DNA of 64,000 nt, taken from NCBI RefSeq assembly GCF_002797855.1, contig NZ_PGFB01000005.1:372001-436000 (forward strand), written 5' to 3'. The notes under the pieces are model-generated. The model was not told the DNA's origin and ran no database searches. It saw nothing but the letters and a program-made list of their open reading frames with translations. Position numbers and translations under genes: made by a program. Positions 3,926-64,000 of the stretch are shown here, one piece after another. Within the stretch, counting starts at the first letter, position 1. Each line of letters begins with the position of its first letter. This DNA comes from Compostimonas suwonensis (GTDB taxonomy: Bacteria; Actinomycetota; Actinomycetes; Actinomycetales; Microbacteriaceae).

Positions 3926-5110
3926 ATGCCCGGCTCGCTCATCCTCGACGTGCTGCTCGTGCTCGTGCTGCTCGCCTATCTCGTCTACGGCTTCCGTCTG
4001 GGCTTCATCCGCAGCATCGCCGGCATCGGAGGCCTCGTGGCCGGCGCCGTCGCGGCGATCCTCGCCATCCCGCTCGTCTCGTCGTGGGTGCCGCAGCCGC
4101 AGTGGCGGGTGGCGGCCGTGCTGGCGACCGTGCTCGTGCTCATCGCGGCGGGCAACACCCTGGGCCTGTGGATCGGGCGGCTCATCGGGCGCCCGATCGA
4201 TCGCACCCCCCTGCGGGTCGTCGACCGGATCGTCGGCGCCGTCGCCGCGGTCGTGCTCACCGGCCTGCTGCTCTCGCTCGTCGCGGGCGGCGTGTCATCA
4301 CTCGGCATCCCCGTCGTCACCCAGGCCATCTCCTCCTCCGCCGTCCTGCGCACGATCGACAACCTCACCCCCGACCCGGTCGACTCGCTGCTCGCCCAGA
4401 TCCGTTCCGCGGTCGTCGACGACGGCATCCCGACCATCACGGGGGCGCTCGGCGCGGGGCAGACCCTCGAGATCCCGGATGTCGACACCACGAGCGACGA
4501 GCTGAGCGTCGCCGCCCGCTCGGTCGTGCGGATCACCGGCAACGCCTACGCCTGCGGTCAGGGCCAGGCCGGCAGCGGGGTCGTCATCGCCCCGGAGCGC
4601 GTACTGACGAACGCGCACGTCGTCGCCGGCGTCGACCAGCCGATCGTCGAGACTCCGGGCGACACCGCGCGCCCCGGCGAGATCGTCTACTTCGACCCCG
4701 TCGACGACCTCGCCGTCATCGCCGTGGACGGCCTCGCCGCGAGCCCGCTGCCGTTCACGCCGAACCTCGCCGTCGGTGAGGCGGCCGTCGTCGACGGCTA
4801 CCCCTTCGGCGGGCCGTTCAGCTCGCAGCCGGCCGTCGTCAACGCCGTCGACAGCATCTCGGTGCCCGACATCTACGGCCAGAACCCGTCGCCCCGCCAG
4901 GTCTACGTGCTCTCGGCCGTGGTCGAGCACGGCAACTCGGGCGGGCCCCTGCTCACCGAGGACGGCTCCGTCGTGGGCCTCGTCTTCGCGAAGGACACCG
5001 CTGCGGCGAAGATCGGCTACGCGCTCGCCATGGACGAGCTCACACCCGTCATCGCGCAGGCCCCCGCGCTCAACGCCGCCGTGCCCACGGGCGACTGCAT
5101 CAAGCTCTGA
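3926..5110 (+). CDS. marP: MarP-like membrane-anchored serine protease
   Basis: 394-residue membrane protein with about four N-terminal hydrophobic helices (roughly residues 5-125, CvpA-like) followed by an extracytoplasmic trypsin-like domain. The triad is His231 (TNAHVVAG), Asp260 (FDPVDDLAVI) and Ser338 (GNSGGPL). Cys210 and Cys391 could form a disulfide. Length, triad spacing and the cysteine pair match mycobacterial MarP (about 397 residues), an acid- and oxidant-resistance protease. ATG at 3926 follows AGGAGAG at a proper distance; longer in-frame starts lack this. The function in this organism is inferred from the family. The stop codon lies in the first unit of a tandem repeat. Confidence 0.85.
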   Translation: MPGSLILDVLLVLVLLAYLVYGFRLGFIRSIAGIGGLVAGAVAAILAIPLVSSWVPQPQWRVAAVLATVLVLIAAGNTLGLWIGRLIGRPIDRTPLRVVDRIVGAVAAVVLTGLLLSLVAGGVSSLGIPVVTQAISSSAVLRTIDNLTPDPVDSLLAQIRSAVVDDGIPTITGALGAGQTLEIPDVDTTSDELSVAARSVVRITGNAYACGQGQAGSGVVIAPERVLTNAHVVAGVDQPIVETPGDTARPGEIVYFDPVDDLAVIAVDGLAASPLPFTPNLAVGEAAVVDGYPFGGPFSSQPAVVNAVDSISVPDIYGQNPSPRQVYVLSAVVEHGNSGGPLLTEDGSVVGLVFAKDTAAAKIGYALAMDELTPVIAQAPALNAAVPTGDCIKL

Positions 5111-5204
5111 GCAGGCGGCACGCTCTGAGCAGGCGGCACGCTCTGAGCAGGCGGCACGCTCTGAGCAGGCGGCACGCTCTGAGCAGACGGCACGCTCTGA
5201 GCGG
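5104..5204. repeat. 18-bp minisatellite across the MarP-like stop codon
   Basis: GCTCTGAGCAGGCGGCAC is repeated 5.6 times (starts 5104, 5122, 5140, 5158, 5176 and a partial unit at 5194); the fifth copy has one change. The first unit contains the TGA of the upstream gene and the last ends 6 bp before the stop of the convergent NTF2-like gene. The in-frame stop stays in place whatever the copy number. Confidence 0.9.
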
Positions 5205-5209
5205 AGAGC

Positions 5210-5596
5210 CTACGAGGGCAGAAGACTTGCCGAGGGCACGGACTGGTTCATCCACCACTCGGTGAACTCGCGGGCGCGGCCGTCCTCGGCCAGGCGGATG
5301 ACCCACAGATTGCTGTAGTTCGGGGCGTTCGAGTACACGGTCACCCCCTGCACGACGGCGACGGCGTCCGTCACGGCGAGCGGGGTCCATTCGAAGGTCG
5401 TGGTGCCCGGTTCGTCCCGCCGTTCGAGCCACCCGGAGACGATCTGCGCGTGGCCGTGCCAGGGCTCGACCCAGGGGTCGGTGCGGTAGTCGGCATCCTC
5501 GGTGAAGAGCGCGCGGATGTCGGCCGGATCGTTGCTCTGCCAGGCCCGGCGGTATCCGGCGATCCACTCCGCGACGGGGTCGGCGATCTCACTCAT
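5210..5596 (-). CDS. NTF2/SnoaL-like domain protein
   Basis: 128-residue single-domain protein. The N-terminal helix (VAEWIAGYRRAWQSND), the RALFTEDADYRTDPW stretch, and strands ending in VVQGVTVYSNAPNYSNLWV fit the NTF2-like alpha+beta cone fold used by SnoaL cyclases, ketosteroid isomerases and many small-molecule-binding proteins. The cavity residues do not tell which. The ATG at 5594-5596 is preceded by GGAGG almost directly, so the start is reasonable but not certain. It is convergent with the MarP-like gene and shows no functional link to its neighbours. Confidence 0.8.
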   Translation of the reverse strand: MSEIADPVAEWIAGYRRAWQSNDPADIRALFTEDADYRTDPWVEPWHGHAQIVSGWLERRDEPGTTTFEWTPLAVTDAVAVVQGVTVYSNAPNYSNLWVIRLAEDGRAREFTEWWMNQSVPSASLLPS

Positions 5597-6794: not shown

Positions 6795-6865
6795 CTGTCG
6801 CGGCGCACGTTCTTCGTCGGGGCGCACCTTCTACGATGCGCCGTGACGAAGAACGTGCGCCGCGA
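6795..6865. repeat. Palindromic repeat family C, copy 1 (71 bp)
   Basis: Perfect 21-bp inverted arms at 6798-6818 and 6845-6865 (core GCGCACGTTCTTCGTC), with an inner 6-bp stem (6821-6826 with 6837-6842). The whole 71 bp is identical, in the same orientation, to 8012-8082. It begins 3 bp beyond the stop codon of the nuclease-like gene and 22 bp from the lacI start. Confidence 0.95.
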
Positions 6866-8011: not shown

Positions 8012-8082
8012 CTGTCGCGGCGCACGTTCTTCGTCGGGGCGCACCTTCTACGATGCGCCGTGACGAAGAACGTGCGCCGCGA
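8012..8082. repeat. Palindromic repeat family C, copy 2 (71 bp)
   Basis: Identical to 6795-6865, including the asymmetric loop, so the two are direct repeats. Arms are at 8015-8035 and 8062-8082. It lies 12 bp beyond the stop codon of the cyclase-family gene and 27 bp upstream of the nuclease-like start. Confidence 0.95.
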
Positions 8083-15286: not shown

Positions 15287-15369
15287 CTCAAAACGACGGA
15301 CAATTCTTCGAAAAACATGTTTTCCGGCCTGGGAACGGCTGATTCATCCAGAATCTCCGTCGTTTTGAG
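15287..15369. repeat. Palindromic repeat family A, copy 1 (83 bp)
   Basis: CTCAAAACGACGGA at 15287-15300 and its exact reverse complement at 15356-15369 enclose 55 bp of unrelated interior. Total length is 83 bp, as in the other three copies. It starts 23 bp past the cbs stop codon. This copy has the most divergent interior. Confidence 0.95.
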
Positions 15370-19248: not shown

Positions 19249-19331
19249 CTCAAAACGACGGAGATACCGCCCGATTTCCTCGCTTTCGGCGTGAAACGGC
19301 ACGTTTTCGCCAGAAGTTCCGTCGTTTTGAG
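19249..19331. repeat. Palindromic repeat family A, copy 2 (83 bp)
   Basis: Arms CTCAAAACGACGGA at 19249-19262 and 19318-19331, extended to 15 bp by one more matching base pair. The interior starts GATACCGC, resembling copies 3 and 4. It lies 77 bp upstream of the ABC exporter start and is the only copy in the window not just after a stop codon. Confidence 0.95.
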
Positions 19332-22573: not shown

Positions 22574-22656
22574 CTCAAAACGACGGAGATACTGCTTCTC
22601 AGAGGCCTTTTGCGCCCAAACGCCGCCCATTCAGCCCAAAAGTCCGTCGTTTTGAG
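22574..22656. repeat. Palindromic repeat family A, copy 3 (83 bp)
   Basis: Arms CTCAAAACGACGGA at 22574-22587 and 22643-22656 with 55 bp between; interior begins GATACTGC. It lies 42 bp past the upstream stop codon. Its right edge (TTGAG) is the first part of the adjoining minisatellite. Confidence 0.95.
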
Positions 22657-22738
22657 CAGAGGTTGAGCAGAGGTTGAGCAGAGGTTGAGCAGAGGTTGAG
22701 CAGGTTGAGCAGAAGCTGAGCAGAAGCTGAGCAGAAGG
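22652..22738. repeat. Minisatellite growing out of palindrome A3
   Basis: TTGAGCAGAGG (11 bp) is repeated from 22652 about four times, then passes into shorter and variant units (TTGAGCAGG, CTGAGCAGAAG) up to the permease stop region. The first unit starts inside the right arm of the palindrome, so the array probably arose by slippage at its edge. Confidence 0.85.
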
Positions 22739-22762
22739 GGGGCGCCTAGCTCGCCCCCGCGA

Positions 22763-51548: not shown

Positions 51549-51818
51549 AGGGGCTGAAACCACACGGCTTCGCTGCGCACAATCTCTACGGTCTACCGTG
51601 ATGGCTTGCCTGAAAATAGGCGCAAAAAAGCATGGCAGATTTCAACTACCTCGACCAAGTGTAGGTCACCGGCTCCGAGCTGTAAAGCCGGGCCGTGCCG
51701 CCCCCTTGTCGAGGATCGTGCTGTCTAGCCGATGTGGATTTCACATGCCGACGACTGGATGCCGCGCGCACGGGTAACAGTCTACGGGGGTCGCGCGCCC
51801 TGGCCTATGCTCGTACTC

Positions 51819-53024
51819 GTGGCAGACGAACTCCCTCGCATCTCCGCGCGCGTAGGCGCGATCGCAGAGTCGGCGACCCTCAAGGTCGACGCGAAGGCCA
51901 AAGCGCTCAAGGCGCAGGGCAAGCAGATCATCTCGTATGCGGCCGGCGAGCCCGACTTCCCCACCCCCGAGCACATCCTGGATGCCGCGGCAGAAGCCGT
52001 GCGCGACCCGAGGAACCACCGCTACACCCCCGCCGCCGGGCTGCCCGAGCTGCGGGAGGCGATCGCCGCCAAGACGCTGCGCGACAGCGGACTCGAGGTA
52101 GCGGCATCCCGGGTCATCGTCACCAACGGCGGCAAGCAGGCCGTCTACCAGGCCTTCCAGACGCTGCTCGACGACGGCGACGAGGTTCTCGTTCCCACGC
52201 CGTACTGGACCACCTACCCCGAGGCGATCAAGCTCGCCGGCGGGGTGCAGGTCGATGTCTTCGCGGGCGCCGACCAGGACTACCTCGTGACGATCGAGCA
52301 GCTCGAGGCCGCGCTCACCCCGCGCAGCAAGGTGCTGCTGTTCGTCTCGCCCTCCAACCCGACCGGCGCCGTCTACTCCCCCGAGCAGACCCGCGCCATC
52401 GGCGAGTGGGCGCTCGAGCGCGGCCTGTGGGTCGTGACCGACGAGATCTACCAGAACCTCACCTACGACGGCGTGCGCGCCCTGTCGATCGTCGAGGCCG
52501 TTCCCGAGCTCGCCGACCGCAGCATCCTGGTCAACGGGGTCGCGAAGACCTACGCGATGACCGGATGGCGCGTGGGATGGATGGTCGGGCCGAGCGACGT
52601 CATCGCCGCCGCCGCCAACCTGCAGTCGCACCTCAGCTCGAACGTCTCGAACGTCTCGCAGCGGGCCGCGATCGCGGCGCTGACGGGCCCGCAGGAGTCG
52701 GCCGAGATCATGCGCGAGGCCTTCGACCGGCGCCGCAAGACGATCGTCGCCGAGCTCAACACGATCCCCGGCGTCGTGACGCCCACCCCGAAGGGCGCGT
52801 TCTACGTGTACCCCGACGTGCGCGGGCTGCTCGGGCGCACCTGGGGCGGCGTGACGCCGACGACCTCGCTCGAGCTCGCCGACCTCATCCTCGACCAGGC
52901 CGAGGTCGCGACCGTGCCCGGAGAGGCCTTCGGCCCCTCCGGCTACCTGCGCCTCTCCTACGCCCTCGGCGACGCCGACCTCCTCGAGGGCGTGCACCGT
53001 CTCCAGCGTCTCTTCCGCGAGTAG
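51819..53024 (+). CDS. Class I/II PLP aminotransferase (aspartate type)
   Basis: 401 residues of fold-type [36 protein letters not shown] Lys in [14 protein letters not shown], and a final Arg in LRLSYAL that binds the substrate carboxylate. Aspartate transaminase (AspC/AspB-like) is most likely. GTG at 51819 is preceded by TATGCT with 7 nt between, favouring a leaderless mRNA; upstream in-frame starts are not needed. The TAG stop lies inside the left arm of a family B palindrome. Confidence 0.92.
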
Positions 53025-53075
53025 ACGCGAATCGGGGGTATTTACGCCGAAACACCCCCGACTCGCGTCCACTCG
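53018..53075. repeat. Palindromic repeat family B, copy 1 (58 bp)
   Basis: 22-bp arms (53018-53039; 53054-53075), consensus GTGGACGCGAATCGGGGG, around a 14-bp spacer; 2 mismatches between arms. One mismatch (A at 53023) makes the TAG stop of the aminotransferase. Confidence 0.93.
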
Positions 53076-53133: not shown

Positions 53134-54069
53134 GTGAACTCACGACAACCACTGCCTCCGCAGCTCCAGGGACGCGCTTTCTCGGTCGGTGAGGCTCTGT
53201 CGCTCGGCGTGCACCCCGACCGGCTGCGAGCAAGCGACCTGGCGAAACCCTTCCACGGCGCACGTCTGCCTGCCGGCGTCGACGGCGGGACCGGGCATCT
53301 CTCCCTCTGTCGCGCCTACCTGCCGGCGCTTCCCCCGAACGGATACTTCAGTCATGCCTCGGCCGCCGCGATCATGGGCATACCTCTTCCTGCGCGAGTG
53401 GCTCGGAGCACCGTCATCCATGTCTCACTTCCGCCTGGTTCACGAGGTGTGCGAACTCGCGATGTGGCCGGCCATGTGCTCGACGCGGGCCCGCACGATC
53501 TGCGGATGTGGGGAGATCTGCCGCTCACCGGACCCGAACGGACCTGGTGCGACCTCGCGGGTGCGCTCTCCCTCCGACAGCTCGTCGCTGCGGGCGACCA
53601 CCTCATCCACCACCGGCAGCCGCTCACGACGCCGCACGAACTGCGTGCCGCCGTCGATCGTTTCGCCGGGCACCGGGGCGTCCGCGCCCTGCGGGCCGCG
53701 CTGCCGCTGCTCAGCGACAGGGCTGAGTCGCCCGCGGAGTCGGAGCTGCGCGTCGTGCTCGCCCTCGCCGGCTTGCCGACGCCGCTGGTCAACCACGAGA
53801 TCCGCACGAGGACGGGTCGGTTCATCGCGCGGGTCGACCTGCTCTTCCCCGAGAACCGCCTCGTGGTCGAGTACCAGGGCGATCATCACCGCACCGATCA
53901 GAAGCAATGGCGGCGTGACCTCGCCCGCGCAGCCGAGCTGGAGTCGGAACGGTACCGCGTGACCGAGGTCACGGCCGACGACCTCCGCTCCGAGCCGGCC
54001 CTGATCGCCCGCATCCGCCGCCTCCTCTCTTTCCCCGTCCCCCTGAGTCGACACGAATCGGGGGTGTAG
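53134..54069 (+). CDS. AbiEi-like HTH / PD-(D/E)XK (DUF559, Vsr-like) protein between family B palindromes
   Basis: 311 residues. N-terminal AbiEi-antitoxin-like helix-turn-helix (FSVGEALSLGVHPDRLRASD, then FHGARLPAG); C-terminal nuclease-like domain with SPAESE (199-204), Asp235 in ARVDLLFPE, and Glu246, Gln248 and His251 in VVEYQGDHHRTDQKQWRRDL, as in DUF559/Vsr-like nucleases. Its biological role is unknown. GTG at 53134, preceded by CATGCT at 6 nt (leaderless-like). The last seven residues, SRHESGV, and the stop are encoded by palindrome B2. Shares its domain layout with the gene at 6869-7984 but not the ExDGxxK detail. Confidence 0.83.
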   Translation: MNSRQPLPPQLQGRAFSVGEALSLGVHPDRLRASDLAKPFHGARLPAGVDGGTGHLSLCRAYLPALPPNGYFSHASAAAIMGIPLPARVARSTVIHVSLPPGSRGVRTRDVAGHVLDAGPHDLRMWGDLPLTGPERTWCDLAGALSLRQLVAAGDHLIHHRQPLTTPHELRAAVDRFAGHRGVRALRAALPLLSDRAESPAESELRVVLALAGLPTPLVNHEIRTRTGRFIARVDLLFPENRLVVEYQGDHHRTDQKQWRRDLARAAELESERYRVTEVTADDLRSEPALIARIRRLLSFPVPLSRHESGV

Positions 54070-54105
54070 AGGCTCCGGAACCCCCGATTCGCGTCCACTC
54101 AGGGG
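54040..54105. repeat. Palindromic repeat family B, copy 2
   Basis: 26-bp arms (54040-54065; 54080-54105) with 2 mismatches and a 14-bp spacer; the 58-bp core is 54044-54101. It contains the 3' end of the upstream nuclease-like gene and lies 84 bp before the ABC gene. Confidence 0.93.
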
Positions 54106-58190: not shown

Positions 58191-58273
58191 CTCAAAACGA
58201 CGGAGATAACGCTCGGAATGCGGCATCCAGGCCCAGAAATGCCCGTTTTGGTCAAAAACTCCGTCGTTTTGAG
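58191..58273. repeat. Palindromic repeat family A, copy 4 (83 bp)
   Basis: Arms CTCAAAACGACGGA at 58191-58204 and 58260-58273, extended outward (CCCCA / TGGGG) to 19 bp. Interior begins GATAACGC. It lies between two convergent regulators, 52 bp and 38 bp from their stops, and could terminate both. Confidence 0.95.
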
Positions 58274-60492: not shown

Positions 60493-62094
60493 ATGACAAA
60501 CGCGAACGGCCCCACGGCGCCGACCGACGACAGCACCGGGGCGAACGGCGCCCCGGCCGGCGCGCCCCGGCAGGGCGACTTCTTCGACTGGGTGCGCGAC
60601 CTCGGCTTCGTGCGCGGCGACGACGCCTGGCTCGGCGGGGTCTGCGCGGCGATCGGTCGTCGCACGGGCCTCGACCCGATCATCGTGCGCGGCATCGCGC
60701 TCGTCATCGCCGTGCTCGGCGGCCCGGTCTTCCTCTTCTACGGCGCCGCCTGGGCCCTGCTGCCCGACGCGACCGGCCGCATCCACCTGCAGGAGGCGAT
60801 CCGGGGCCGCTTCGACCCGGCCATGATCGCGATCGGCGTCTTCGTGCTCCTGACGTTCATGCCCTTCACCCACGGTCTCTGGTGGGTGGGCCCGCCCGAC
60901 GTCTGGGGGATGCCCGACTGGCTCGAGGTGACCTTCCGCGCCGGCTGGATCATCGCCCTCGTCGCCGGGATCATCTGGCTCTCCGTCACCGTCGCCCGTC
61001 GCACGCCCCGCCCCCCGCAGCCCGGCACGAACCCCGGCAGCGGCCACCACGGGAGCACGAACCCCGGCAGCGGCCATCACGGGAGCCCGGCGAGCGCAGC
61101 TGCCGCCGCGGGTGCCGTGAGCACCCCGGATGCCGCGACCGCGGGCGGCCCGACCGCGGCCTTCGCCGCCGACGCCACTGGAACCGCGACGGCCCCGCCC
61201 GCCTTCGGCCCGGCGACGGATGCCACCGGCACCCCCGCCGCCGACACGGCCGGCACGGGCACGGGCACGGGCACGGGCACGGGCACGGGCACGGGCAGCA
61301 CCGATACAACCAGCACCGGCGCGACCGCCACCCCGCCCCCGGCCGACCCCACCCCCACGCGGGACTACGCCGACTACTGGGGCAAGCGGCTCGGCGAGAG
61401 CGCATCGGCCCGCGCCGAGCAGTTCAGCCATGACATCAACCGCCACGTCGACGACTGGCGCGGCCGCCAGGCCGGAGCGGGCTTCACCGCGATCGTGCTC
61501 GGCCTCGCCCTCGTCGCCGGCGCGGCCACGGCCGGGATCGCCGCCCAGAGCCCGTGGAGCGACTCGGCCCTGGTGGCCGGGCTCGCCGCCGCGACCGCCG
61601 CGCTCGCGATCGGCATCGTGATCGCCGGCATCCGCGGCCGTACGAGCGGATGGATGAGCCCCTTCGCGATCGTGCTCGTGGCCGTGCTCGTGGTCACCGG
61701 CATCCTGCCCAGGGACACTCAGATCAGCGCCTTCGGAGCGCCGGACTGGACCGTGCGCTCGGTGTCGCAGACCGGTCCGGAGGCGTTCGCGATGATCGCG
61801 GGCGCACCGACGCTCGACCTGAGCGAGCTCACGGCGAGCTCGGACGGCGACATCGACGTCTACCTGCTGGCAGGCACGATCACCGTCGAGGTTCCCGACG
61901 ACCGCAACGTCGTCGTCGAGTCGCACGCGCTCGTCGGCTCGGTGACCGCCGACGGCGACGAACGGGACGGCGCGCTCTTCCTCAGCAACGAGCGCCACGA
62001 CTTCGACGGCGGCACCGGCAGCCGCACGACGACCGTGCGCCTGTGGAACCTGGTGGGCGCCGCCGACATCCAGCTCGACCGGACCAACGGCTAG
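60493..62094 (+). CDS. PspC-domain membrane protein with repeat linker
   Basis: 533 residues. PspC domain at about 40-90 (RGDDAWLGGVCAAIGRRTGL), two to three membrane helices to 170, an 80-100 residue Gly/Thr/Ala/His linker including a GT repeat, then four more membrane helices (380-440), and a C-terminal beta-rich LiaF/YvqF-like domain (SELTASSDGDIDVYLLAGTI). LiaF-type proteins restrain the linked kinase, which would make this the inhibitor of the LiaS-like kinase next door. ATG at 60493. Confidence 0.87.
   Translation: MTNANGPTAPTDDSTGANGAPAGAPRQGDFFDWVRDLGFVRGDDAWLGGVCAAIGRRTGLDPIIVRGIALVIAVLGGPVFLFYGAAWALLPDATGRIHLQEAIRGRFDPAMIAIGVFVLLTFMPFTHGLWWVGPPDVWGMPDWLEVTFRAGWIIALVAGIIWLSVTVARRTPRPPQPGTNPGSGHHGSTNPGSGHHGSPASAAAAAGAVSTPDAATAGGPTAAFAADATGTATAPPAFGPATDATGTPAADTAGTGTGTGTGTGTGTGSTDTTSTGATATPPPADPTPTRDYADYWGKRLGESASARAEQFSHDINRHVDDWRGRQAGAGFTAIVLGLALVAGAATAGIAAQSPWSDSALVAGLAAATAALAIGIVIAGIRGRTSGWMSPFAIVLVAVLVVTGILPRDTQISAFGAPDWTVRSVSQTGPEAFAMIAGAPTLDLSELTASSDGDIDVYLLAGTITVEVPDDRNVVVESHALVGSVTADGDERDGALFLSNERHDFDGGTGSRTTTVRLWNLVGAADIQLDRTNG
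61252..61293. repeat. GGCACG hexamer repeat in the PspC-protein linker
   Basis: Seven exact GGCACG units encoding Gly-Thr repeats; changes in unit number keep the frame. Similar in kind to the CACGAG repeat at 9157. Confidence 0.9.
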
Positions 62095-62120
62095 ACCGCC
62101 GACGACACGAGGAGACGCAC

Positions 62121-62495
62121 ATGACAGACAACACGCCCGACCCGTTCACCGCGGCATCCGCTGCCCCGGCCGGCGGCACCCCGGCATCCGCCGCCTCGAC
62201 CGGCCACGCTCCGACCGGCCAGACTCCGACCGGCCGCATCCCGACCGGCCGCATCCCGACCGGCACCGCCCCAACCGGCACGGCCTCGGTCACCGCCCCG
62301 CAACCCCGCCGCTACCCGGCGCGCATCGGCACGATCATCTGGGGCATGCTGCTGCTCGCCTTCGCCGCCTACATGATCATCACGACGGTCGTGCCGCCCG
62401 TCGCCGACCCCGTCACCCTCATCACGGGCGCCCTCATCGCCGGCGGCCTCGCCCTCGTCATCGTAGGCATCGCCGCCGCCTCCCGCCGCCCCTGA
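62121..62495 (+). CDS. Small membrane protein with PTG-repeat N-terminus
   Basis: 124 residues. A cytoplasmic half of PTGRI/PTGTA repeats encoded by 15-bp units (about 62205-62290), then two membrane helices (IGTIIWGMLLLAFAAYMIIT and ITGALIAGGLALVIVGIAAA). ATG at 62121, ribosome site GAGGAGA, 26 bp after the PspC gene, so they form an operon. I do not recognise the family. The TGA touches palindrome B3. Confidence 0.8.
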   Translation: MTDNTPDPFTAASAAPAGGTPASAASTGHAPTGQTPTGRIPTGRIPTGTAPTGTASVTAPQPRRYPARIGTIIWGMLLLAFAAYMIITTVVPPVADPVTLITGALIAGGLALVIVGIAAASRRP

Positions 62496-62564
62496 TCCCG
62501 CGAGTGGACGCAAATCGGGGGTGTTTCGGTCGAAACACCCCCGATTTGCGTCCACTCGCGGGAT
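62495..62564. repeat. Palindromic repeat family B, copy 3 (perfect 34-bp arms)
   Basis: Arms 62495-62528 and 62531-62564 are exact reverse complements with a 2-bp centre. The 58-bp family core is 62501-62558 (core word GTGGACGCAAATCGGGGG). It is the longest perfect palindrome in the window. It begins at the last base of the upstream TGA and ends 7 bp before the stop of the convergent ABC permease. Confidence 0.95.
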
Positions 62565-62570
62565 GGGCGG

Positions 62571-63335
62571 CTAGGCGTTTTCTTTGCGGAAGGTGCGGGT
62601 GCCGACCCAGAGGCCGACGACGAAGAGCACGAGCGTCCAGAGCACACCCCAGAGCACCGTGACCGTGCCGAAGTCGCCCGCGAAGAAGTCGCGCACGGCG
62701 TTGACGACGTACTTCGTGGGCATGAAGTCGCTCACGACCGCGAGCCACTCGGGAGCACCCGTCGCCGTGCTGATCGGCAGCAGGATGCCCGAGAGCAGCA
62801 GCACGGGCAGCGCGATGCTGTTGAGGATCGGCGCCATCACGTCTTCGCTCTTCGTCGTGAGGGCGAGGGCGTTGGATGCCGCGGCACACGCCGCGCCCAC
62901 GAGCAGCACGAGCACCAGGCCGAAGAGCATGCCGGCGATCGAGCCGCGCAGGCCGAAGGCGAAGCCGAGCGCGATGAGCACGACGCCCTGCACGAAGAGC
63001 AGCACGACATCGCGCAGGATGCGGCCGAACAGCAGGGCGGTGCGGCTCGCGGGGGTCACCCGCTCCGCCTCGATGACGCCCTCGCGCCACTCGGAGACGA
63101 GCCCGAAGCCCGCGAAGAGCGCCCCGAAGAGGCCGAGCTGCACGAGCAGCCCGGGCACGAAGAAGGTGTAGGCGTTGTCGGTGCCGATCTGGGCCGCGAG
63201 CGGTTCGAGCAGCGGGCCGAAGAGCACGAGGTAGAGGATCGGCTGGGCGAGCCCGATGATCACCCAGGCGGGGTTGCGCAGGTTCATCCGCATCTGCCTG
63301 CGGAAGACGATGCCGGTGTCGTGGAAGAAGGTCAT
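62571..63335 (-). CDS. ABC-2 exporter permease (DrrB type)
   Basis: 254 residues, six membrane helices: RNPAWVIIGLAQPILYLVLF, EWREGVIEAERVTPASRTAL, LSGILLPISTATGAPEWLAV. It follows its ATPase gene after 28 bp. Exports an unknown lipophilic substrate; DrrAB-type pumps often carry drugs or natural products. ATG at 63333-63335. Confidence 0.92.
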   Translation of the reverse strand: MTFFHDTGIVFRRQMRMNLRNPAWVIIGLAQPILYLVLFGPLLEPLAAQIGTDNAYTFFVPGLLVQLGLFGALFAGFGLVSEWREGVIEAERVTPASRTALLFGRILRDVVLLFVQGVVLIALGFAFGLRGSIAGMLFGLVLVLLVGAACAAASNALALTTKSEDVMAPILNSIALPVLLLSGILLPISTATGAPEWLAVVSDFMPTKYVVNAVRDFFAGDFGTVTVLWGVLWTLVLFVVGLWVGTRTFRKENA

Positions 63336-63363
63336 GAAGGTCTCCTGTCGCTGTCGTCGGATC

Positions 63364-64000
63364 TCAGGCTGCGGCTTCGTCGCGCAGCGAACGGCCGGTC
63401 ATGGTGAGGAACACGTCGTCGAGCGTGGGGCGGCGCACCTCGATCTGCTCGAGGGCCACCCCCGCCGAGTCGAGCGAGCGCAGGAGCCCGGGCAGCACCG
63501 TGCCCGCGCGGGGCACGCGCACGCTCACGGTGAGCTCGGCGACATCCGCCGCCGTGCCTCCGGCGAGGGCTGTGAGCTGCGCCGCAGCCGTGGTGACGTG
63601 GGCGGCGTCGGTGAGCACGAGCTCGATGAGGTCGCCCGCCACCTGGCTCTTGAGCGCCTCGGGCGTGTCGCTCGCGACGATCGAGCCGTGGTCGATCACG
63701 AGGATGCGGTCGCACAGCGCGTCGGCCTCGTCGAGGTAGTGCGTCGTGAGGAAGACGGTCGCACCGCGCTGGGTGCGCAGATCGGAGATGTGCGTCCAGA
63801 GGTTGGCGCGCGCCTGCGGGTCGAGGCCCGTGGTCGGCTCGTCGAGGAAGACGAGCTTCGGGTCGTGCACGAGACCCATGGCGATGTCGAGGCGGCGGCG
63901 CTGGCCGCCCGAGAGGGTGCGCGGAGCCCGCGTCCACATGCCGTCGAGGTCGAGCTGCTCGAAGAGCTCCCTGCCCCGCCGCTCGGCCTGCTGCCGGCTG
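63364..64000 (-). CDS. ABC-2 exporter ATPase (DrrA type), N-terminus outside window
   Basis: The last 212 residues are present. Signature TLSGGQRRRLDIAMGL, Walker B LVFLDEPTTGLDPQ, H-loop LTTHYLDEADALCD, then the DrrA-type C-terminal domain (RPTLDDVFLTMTGRSL). Walker A and the start codon lie beyond base 64000. Shares an operon with the permease that follows. Confidence 0.95.
   Translation of the reverse strand, partial: SRQQAERRGRELFEQLDLDGMWTRAPRTLSGGQRRRLDIAMGLVHDPKLVFLDEPTTGLDPQARANLWTHISDLRTQRGATVFLTTHYLDEADALCDRILVIDHGSIVASDTPEALKSQVAGDLIELVLTDAAHVTTAAAQLTALAGGTAADVAELTVSVRVPRAGTVLPGLLRSLDSAGVALEQIEVRRPTLDDVFLTMTGRSLRDEAAA

Follow-up and report, generated by a model that had tools for sequence, protein, structure and literature searches.

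A perfect palindrome between convergent genes of Compostimonas suwonensis belongs to an interspersed family of fixed-length, dyad-symmetric elements that are possible DNA-wrapping sites

Within the window, the whole 64,000-nucleotide stretch of the C. suwonensis genome analysed here, a gene for an ABC-2 type transporter permease and a 124-amino-acid ORF without a Pfam match converge on a gap that consists almost entirely of a palindrome. The first base of the palindrome is the last stop-codon base of the forward ORF. ORFs and genes were called with a codon-bias script and not with an annotation pipeline. The two arms (62495–62528 and 62531–62564) are full reverse complements around a GT centre; the initial annotation had described a perfect palindrome of this 34-2-34 form, and it was confirmed base by base. 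Pairing ends at 62494/62565, the first failing base pair, and relaxed matching stretches the inverted repeat to 62488–62571. At this composition (GC 0.698), about 3e-14 inverted repeats with perfect 34-bp arms and a given spacing would be expected by chance in 64 kb. An Rfam search of the window returned just one tRNA above the gathering score and no match for the palindrome. The features are collected in Table 1.

Table 1. Positions of the palindrome, its neighbouring genes and the family A and B elements in the window.
Feature	Position	Strand	Remark
Perfect palindrome, 34-bp arms, 2-bp centre	62495..62564		
Left conserved family B arm, 21 bp	62502..62522	+	
Variable centre of this copy, 14 bp	62523..62536		self-complementary except for 2 bp
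Right conserved family B arm, 21 bp	62537..62557	-	
Convergent neighbour, 124-aa ORF	62121..62495	+	no Pfam match
Convergent neighbour, ABC-2 type transporter permease	62571..63335	-	
Family B copy 1	53019..53074		overlaps end of aminotransferase ORF 51807-53024
Family B copy 2	54045..54100		overlaps 3' end of DUF559-like ORF 53464-54069
Family A element	15287..15369		
Family A element	19249..19331		
Family A element	22574..22656		
Family A element	58191..58273		

The inner part of the palindrome (62502–62557) is a 56-bp element, so that the family B core formerly claimed for it is indeed present. The element is common to copies 1 and 2 in the window and to 15 further loci of the genome. A search of the 3.88-Mb genome with the half-site GAGTGGACGCRAATCGGGGG (up to 3 mismatches) imposed no pairing condition and gave 36 matches, all of which belonged to 18 inverted pairs with a spacing of 36 bp from start to start (18/18). 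With a covariance model, 20 elements were found, namely the 18 pairs, C3:665007 and C1:852, the last with differing arms. The 21-bp arms are near-invariant, and where they vary (columns 5, 11, 14, 15 and 19) the variation is coupled on both sides: 43 cells were changed on both sides compared to 20 in shuffles, none of 500 shuffles reaching the observed value. The arm pairing itself was high as well (385/399 against 355.8 expected). Most copies have a 14-bp centre of their own, and yet the centres pair above chance, with 67/133 against 47.5 expected (P=0.0006) and, when the window copy is left out, 61/126 against 45.7 (P=0.005).

The copy at 62495–62564 is the longest-paired one of the family. 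Its 34-bp arm is made up of the 21-bp family arm, six centre pairs and seven flank pairs, the latter partly identical to a common flank CCGC/GCGG. It had been proposed that this copy represents the ancestral form, from which copies 1 and 2 arose by decay of their centres. The proposal is at best weakly supported, given this composition and the differing centres of the other copies, which themselves pair above chance. The centre of copy 1 does resemble the one at 62495–62564 (10/14 positions), as does that of L015 (9/14), but the centre of copy 2 does not (4/14). Among the centres of the genome, 12 pairs have an identity of at least 10/14 compared to 2.4 expected, and therefore some family B copies share ancestry. 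Judged from their sequences, however, the copies are not one palindrome plus its decayed derivatives.

Family B is not enriched in convergent gaps of its genome (5/19 copies against 37/182 gaps, P=0.56), and 3/19 copies lie in divergent gaps; L009 is not among these 19 contexts, as its element falls within the terminal part of a predicted ORF. The two copies between 53019 and 54100 bracket the DUF559-like ORF. A link of family B to DUF559 was considered and dropped, since the other two DUF559 genes of the genome do not adjoin B copies.

The exact family B pattern was absent from 198 other genomes of the bacterial family, and for this reason the covariance model was needed. It gave a match at E<=0.01 in 21 of 100 genomes, own genome included. 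A weak match that stands alone could come from any hairpin of this length, and so weight was given only where a genome has several copies with like arms. Similar multi-copy palindromes of 52–56 bp are present in further genera of the bacterial family, with like-armed sets of 54–56 bp in G008, G006, G033, G078, G045, G092 and G021. A model-free hairpin search of G078 and G033, covering 400 kb per genome, recovered the same sets as well as further palindrome families. The contexts of 29 elements, 27 of them from other genera, were convergent in 18 cases, codirectional in nine (six ++, three --), divergent in one and inside an ORF in one. Loose-core matches in Agromyces lapidis, Rikenella microfusus, Leucobacter zeae and an Oscillochloris MAG were single hairpins and were not counted, and the loose core had no match in the viral contigs searched. 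One element centre, TGTTTC-NNNN-GAAACA, is parS-like; among 199 genomes this centre recurs only in the sister genus g52, and the resemblance was taken as chance or shared ancestry.

In this sister genus, two genomes (G051 and G120) allowed orthologous elements to be compared. With up to 3 mismatches allowed, the g52 half-site ACTTGACGCAAAGCAGGGTG was found 67+68 times in G051 and 57+57 times in G120. Within 400 kb per genome, 70 pairs were formed, 68 at a spacing of 32 bp and two at 33 bp, and five half-sites were unpaired; the 52-bp profiles omit the two 53-bp pairs and the five lone half-sites. Convergent gaps hold more of the g52 elements than expected (30/68 against 58/351 gaps, P=2e-6), and divergent ones hold fewer (5/68 against 90/351, P=5e-4).

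The comparison covered about a sixth of each genome. Of 61 G051 elements, 40 were without an element-bearing orthologous gap in the G120 loci compared and two more lay at an edge; 21 had an orthologous element. In these 21 pairs, the centre was the same in 14, inverted in five and diverged in two. The copies of g52 therefore persist, and their centres flip. Four of the inversions are exact and one has a single mismatch. In alignments of three of the five, 6–8 central bases are swapped for their reverse complement between colinear flanks; a further flip of this kind (L220:6361/L239:6892) lies outside the 21 pairs. Thus, centres between inverted arms occur in both orientations at orthologous sites, as expected of a flip-flop. 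Arms and centres are otherwise near-unchanged, and nearby intergenic DNA carries substitutions and indels. The initial annotation had reasoned that a long perfect palindrome must be young, useful or protected; usefulness, rather than mere youth, fits these g52 data with their kept centres, few arm changes and more divergent adjacent DNA. An element was present in both g52 species in 24 of 28 rows. In all four absences the gap contains another copy, and when three such gaps were aligned, two resembled the outcome of a deletion between adjacent copies. Arms of g52 show no covariation above that predicted by composition (G051, 702 against 697.8, P=0.11; G120, 592 against 591.5) and the centres pair below expectation (101 against 111.6 and 91 against 99.2, respectively), so that hairpin arm editing is seen in the own genome only.

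A second type of element, family A, is unrelated to family B. Its 83-bp elements, of which the C. suwonensis genome holds more than 59, have conserved 14-bp ends and a fixed spacing; the half-site CTCAAAACGACGGA gave 59 perfect pairs, nearly all at 69 bp and a few at 70 bp. The 55-bp interior is unique per copy but shows A/T peaks every 10 bp, with an A/T fraction of about 1 at the peaks and 0.1 between them (61 elements). Pairing was rejected as a rule for family A, since pairing of the interior equals the expectation from column composition, and palindromic flanks beyond the element were not above the null except in 2/61. In L057 and L075 the interior is shared and the flanks are not (49/55 interior against 20/60 flank positions). 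At C1:516890–517008 (L049, L082), three family A half-sites follow each other in tandem 18-bp steps, then one inverted partner. The 10-bp phasing recurs in a second genus, g52, where L096 and L097 carry an element that is A-like but has clearly distinct ends (ATTGCCTGATTTT). An 11-bp tandem repeat, AGGTTGAGCAG, lies at 22649–22746 directly beyond a family A element.

The phasing is common to seven families from six genera, family A included: the strongest A/T period is 9.6–10.3 bp, the first peak lies 4.9–5.7 bp from the dyad, and in all of them A/T content is high about 5, 15 and 25 bp away from it. The seven are not independent because the B-type arms share a core, and four have just 3–5 copies. 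Phasing outside the element was measured after removal of near-duplicate flanks and of g52 elements with a close neighbour. In g52, peaks were found near 46, 56 and 66 bp in each of the two genomes, with 0/2000 phase-shifted nulls reaching the signal in either (40–70 bp). The flanks of family B in the own genome showed a weaker signal, which is shifted by about 3 bp relative to that of g52 (P=0.016 at 40–70 bp and 0.001 at 55–95 bp). Family A had no phasing beyond its own ends (44–74 bp, P=0.17); an apparent signal at 42–84 bp includes the element edge.

What has to be explained is a multi-copy element with fixed spacing, arms that are conserved and in the own genome coupled, a variable centre and A/T peaks, which persists in g52 with 5/21 centres inverted. 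Our preferred, still tentative reading is that the palindrome is a copy of an interspersed, fixed-length, dyad-symmetric gene-end element that is kept by binding of a DNA-wrapping, gyrase-like protein and edited by hairpin template switching. During replication, switching within a hairpin or cruciform would copy one arm onto the other and flip the centre, which would explain the coupled arm changes, the flipping and the perfect 70-bp palindrome without any special protection. Such a rigid geometry points to a protein that wraps DNA: a dyad-symmetric complex would recognise the arms by sequence, with A/T-rich minor grooves facing the protein at each turn, and the element would be retained because it is bound.

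DNA gyrase would be the best candidate for this binder and the element a putative strong gyrase site, which might absorb positive supercoils ahead of transcription, functionally like BIME-2 of E. coli. Dyad symmetry and a GC/AT periodicity of about 10 bp, the marks of a strong gyrase site, were found in all seven families; periodicity to about 65 bp from the dyad is present in g52, whereas the own family B shows it weakly and out of register and family A not at all. Gyrase is not known to need a 21-bp sequence-specific arm, and this counts against gyrase as the binder. The E. coli gyrase motif is described as symmetric, about 130 bp long and with a 10.75-bp GC periodicity, and cleavage sites are reported to be enriched in BIME-2 and downstream of highly transcribed operons (PMC6379681); a periodic GC preference is described for M. 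tuberculosis gyrase in a preprint (PMC12324340). The elements resemble the E. coli motif in their dyad symmetry and in a periodicity of about 10 bp that in g52 extends past 60 bp from the dyad. However, that motif is degenerate, whereas the elements have sequence-specific arms and the phasing of family A stops at the element ends.

A wider form of the preferred reading is more speculative and rather doubtful: the elements might be a gene-end class of sequence-specific, dyad-symmetric wrapping sites that runs through this actinobacterial family, with unrelated arms, one geometry and centres flipped by hairpin template switching, being either equivalents of strong gyrase sites or places occupied by a new wrapping protein. 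By analogy, their geometry may be nucleosome-like, in that minor grooves rich in A/T would lie about 5, 15, 25 and 35 bp away from the dyad.

The element could instead act on RNA by ending, processing or stabilising transcripts from one neighbouring gene or from both, selection then keeping the pairing. This is a serious possibility, though it, too, falls short of being probable. The window contains 16 long hairpins compared to 1–2 in Markov shuffles; 14 of the 16 are intergenic, none lies in its eight divergent gaps, and many begin 3–35 nt past a stop codon. In the own genome, hairpins outside family B (a class that includes two or three B elements) are rare in divergent gaps (1/28 against 39/182). 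The 62495–62564 copy has a predicted RNA fold of -87.4 kcal/mol (z -13.1), and the coupled arm changes of family B are also in line with selected pairing. In Laureae chloroplasts, 6/11 flipping hairpins are reported to lie at tail-to-tail gene junctions (PMC6824564). Intrinsic terminators share the position of the hairpin soon past a stop codon but have a U-tract and a much shorter stem; no U-tract terminator was found in 61800–63400. On the transcribed strand of codirectional family B copies, mismatches among 222 were A-C in 7 cases, G-U in 4 and other in 1, so that there is no wobble signature; likewise, the g52 mismatches of both genomes were 13 GU, 10 AC and 10 other. The low pairing of g52 centres and the copies in divergent gaps speak against a role in RNA, for which the exact arm spacing and the W/S phasing would be unnecessary. 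Taken on these sequence features, a DNA-level site is favoured over an RNA-level one, although not strongly, by the missing U-tract, the lack of a G-U excess, the g52 centres, the rigid spacing and the phased but non-pairing family A.

A REP- or MITE-like selfish element, copied by some enzyme, would account for the many copies with genus-specific arms and for a similarity that is confined to the element between unrelated flanks (L057/L075). Family B centres L012 and L018 are identical in 13/14 positions, and the two window copies of a further palindrome family, C, are identical over 71 bp. Nevertheless, this origin is unlikely: RAYT (PF01797) had no match in the own genome, with 5/14 control genomes positive; no precise empty site was seen among the 28 g52 rows, the four absent ones being gaps with a second copy; and most rows had the element in both species. 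With many intergenic palindromic copies near gene ends (18 pairs, or 20 by the model), the elements are comparable to REP/BIME-2 of E. coli, but they differ from it by the lack of RAYT in the own genome, arms of 20–21 bp, exact spacing, a flipping centre and dyad-locked phasing. BIME-2 binds gyrase (PMC6379681). The elements are a variant of interspersed intergenic palindromes, in which flipping centres and dyad-locked phasing are unusual. Six arm sequences had no match in the literature text searched, which is no proof of novelty, and a literature word search on the family combined with phased tracts found no description of these repeats.

A site-specific invertible element, whose centre would be turned round, possibly as a switch, by a recombinase working on the two arms, would produce the inverted centres between intact arms in 5/21 g52 orthologues. 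It is very improbable, as the 12–14 bp between 20-bp arms are very short for two recombination sites and the flipped piece of a few bases is too short for a promoter or a reading frame.

Template switching can create or keep perfect stems and invert loops, and loop inversions with compensatory changes are documented (Monttinen and Loytynoja 2022, PMC8794818). The view that it merely perfects and flips any chance inverted repeat, without function, is hardly credible since it leaves about 20–70 same-armed copies, their fixed spacing, the phased A/T and the enrichment in convergent gaps of g52 unexplained. The coupled stem changes and inverted loops are like those in that study (PMC8794818); there, however, single rRNA and miRNA stems are concerned and here interspersed DNA repeats. 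Likewise, small inversions of chloroplasts flip their loops between relatives, many at tail-to-tail gene ends (PMC6824564), but the bacterial elements are multi-copy families with shared arms and phased composition.

If the DNA-wrapping reading is true, the elements would be sequence-predictable addresses of chromosome topology in high-GC actinobacteria. Whatever their function, the two g52 genomes, with several dozen hairpins that are almost identical, are a natural assay of the frequency of loop flipping in bacteria and of the persistence of perfect palindromes.

Two other kinds of repeat were observed in the window. Family C comprises like-armed palindromes of 68–76 bp at 6798–6865 and 8015–8082 and, outside it, at L065 831–898 and L068 482–557. 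At 5083–5220, past an ORF ending at 5110, there is an 18-bp tandem repeat around 5101–5200.
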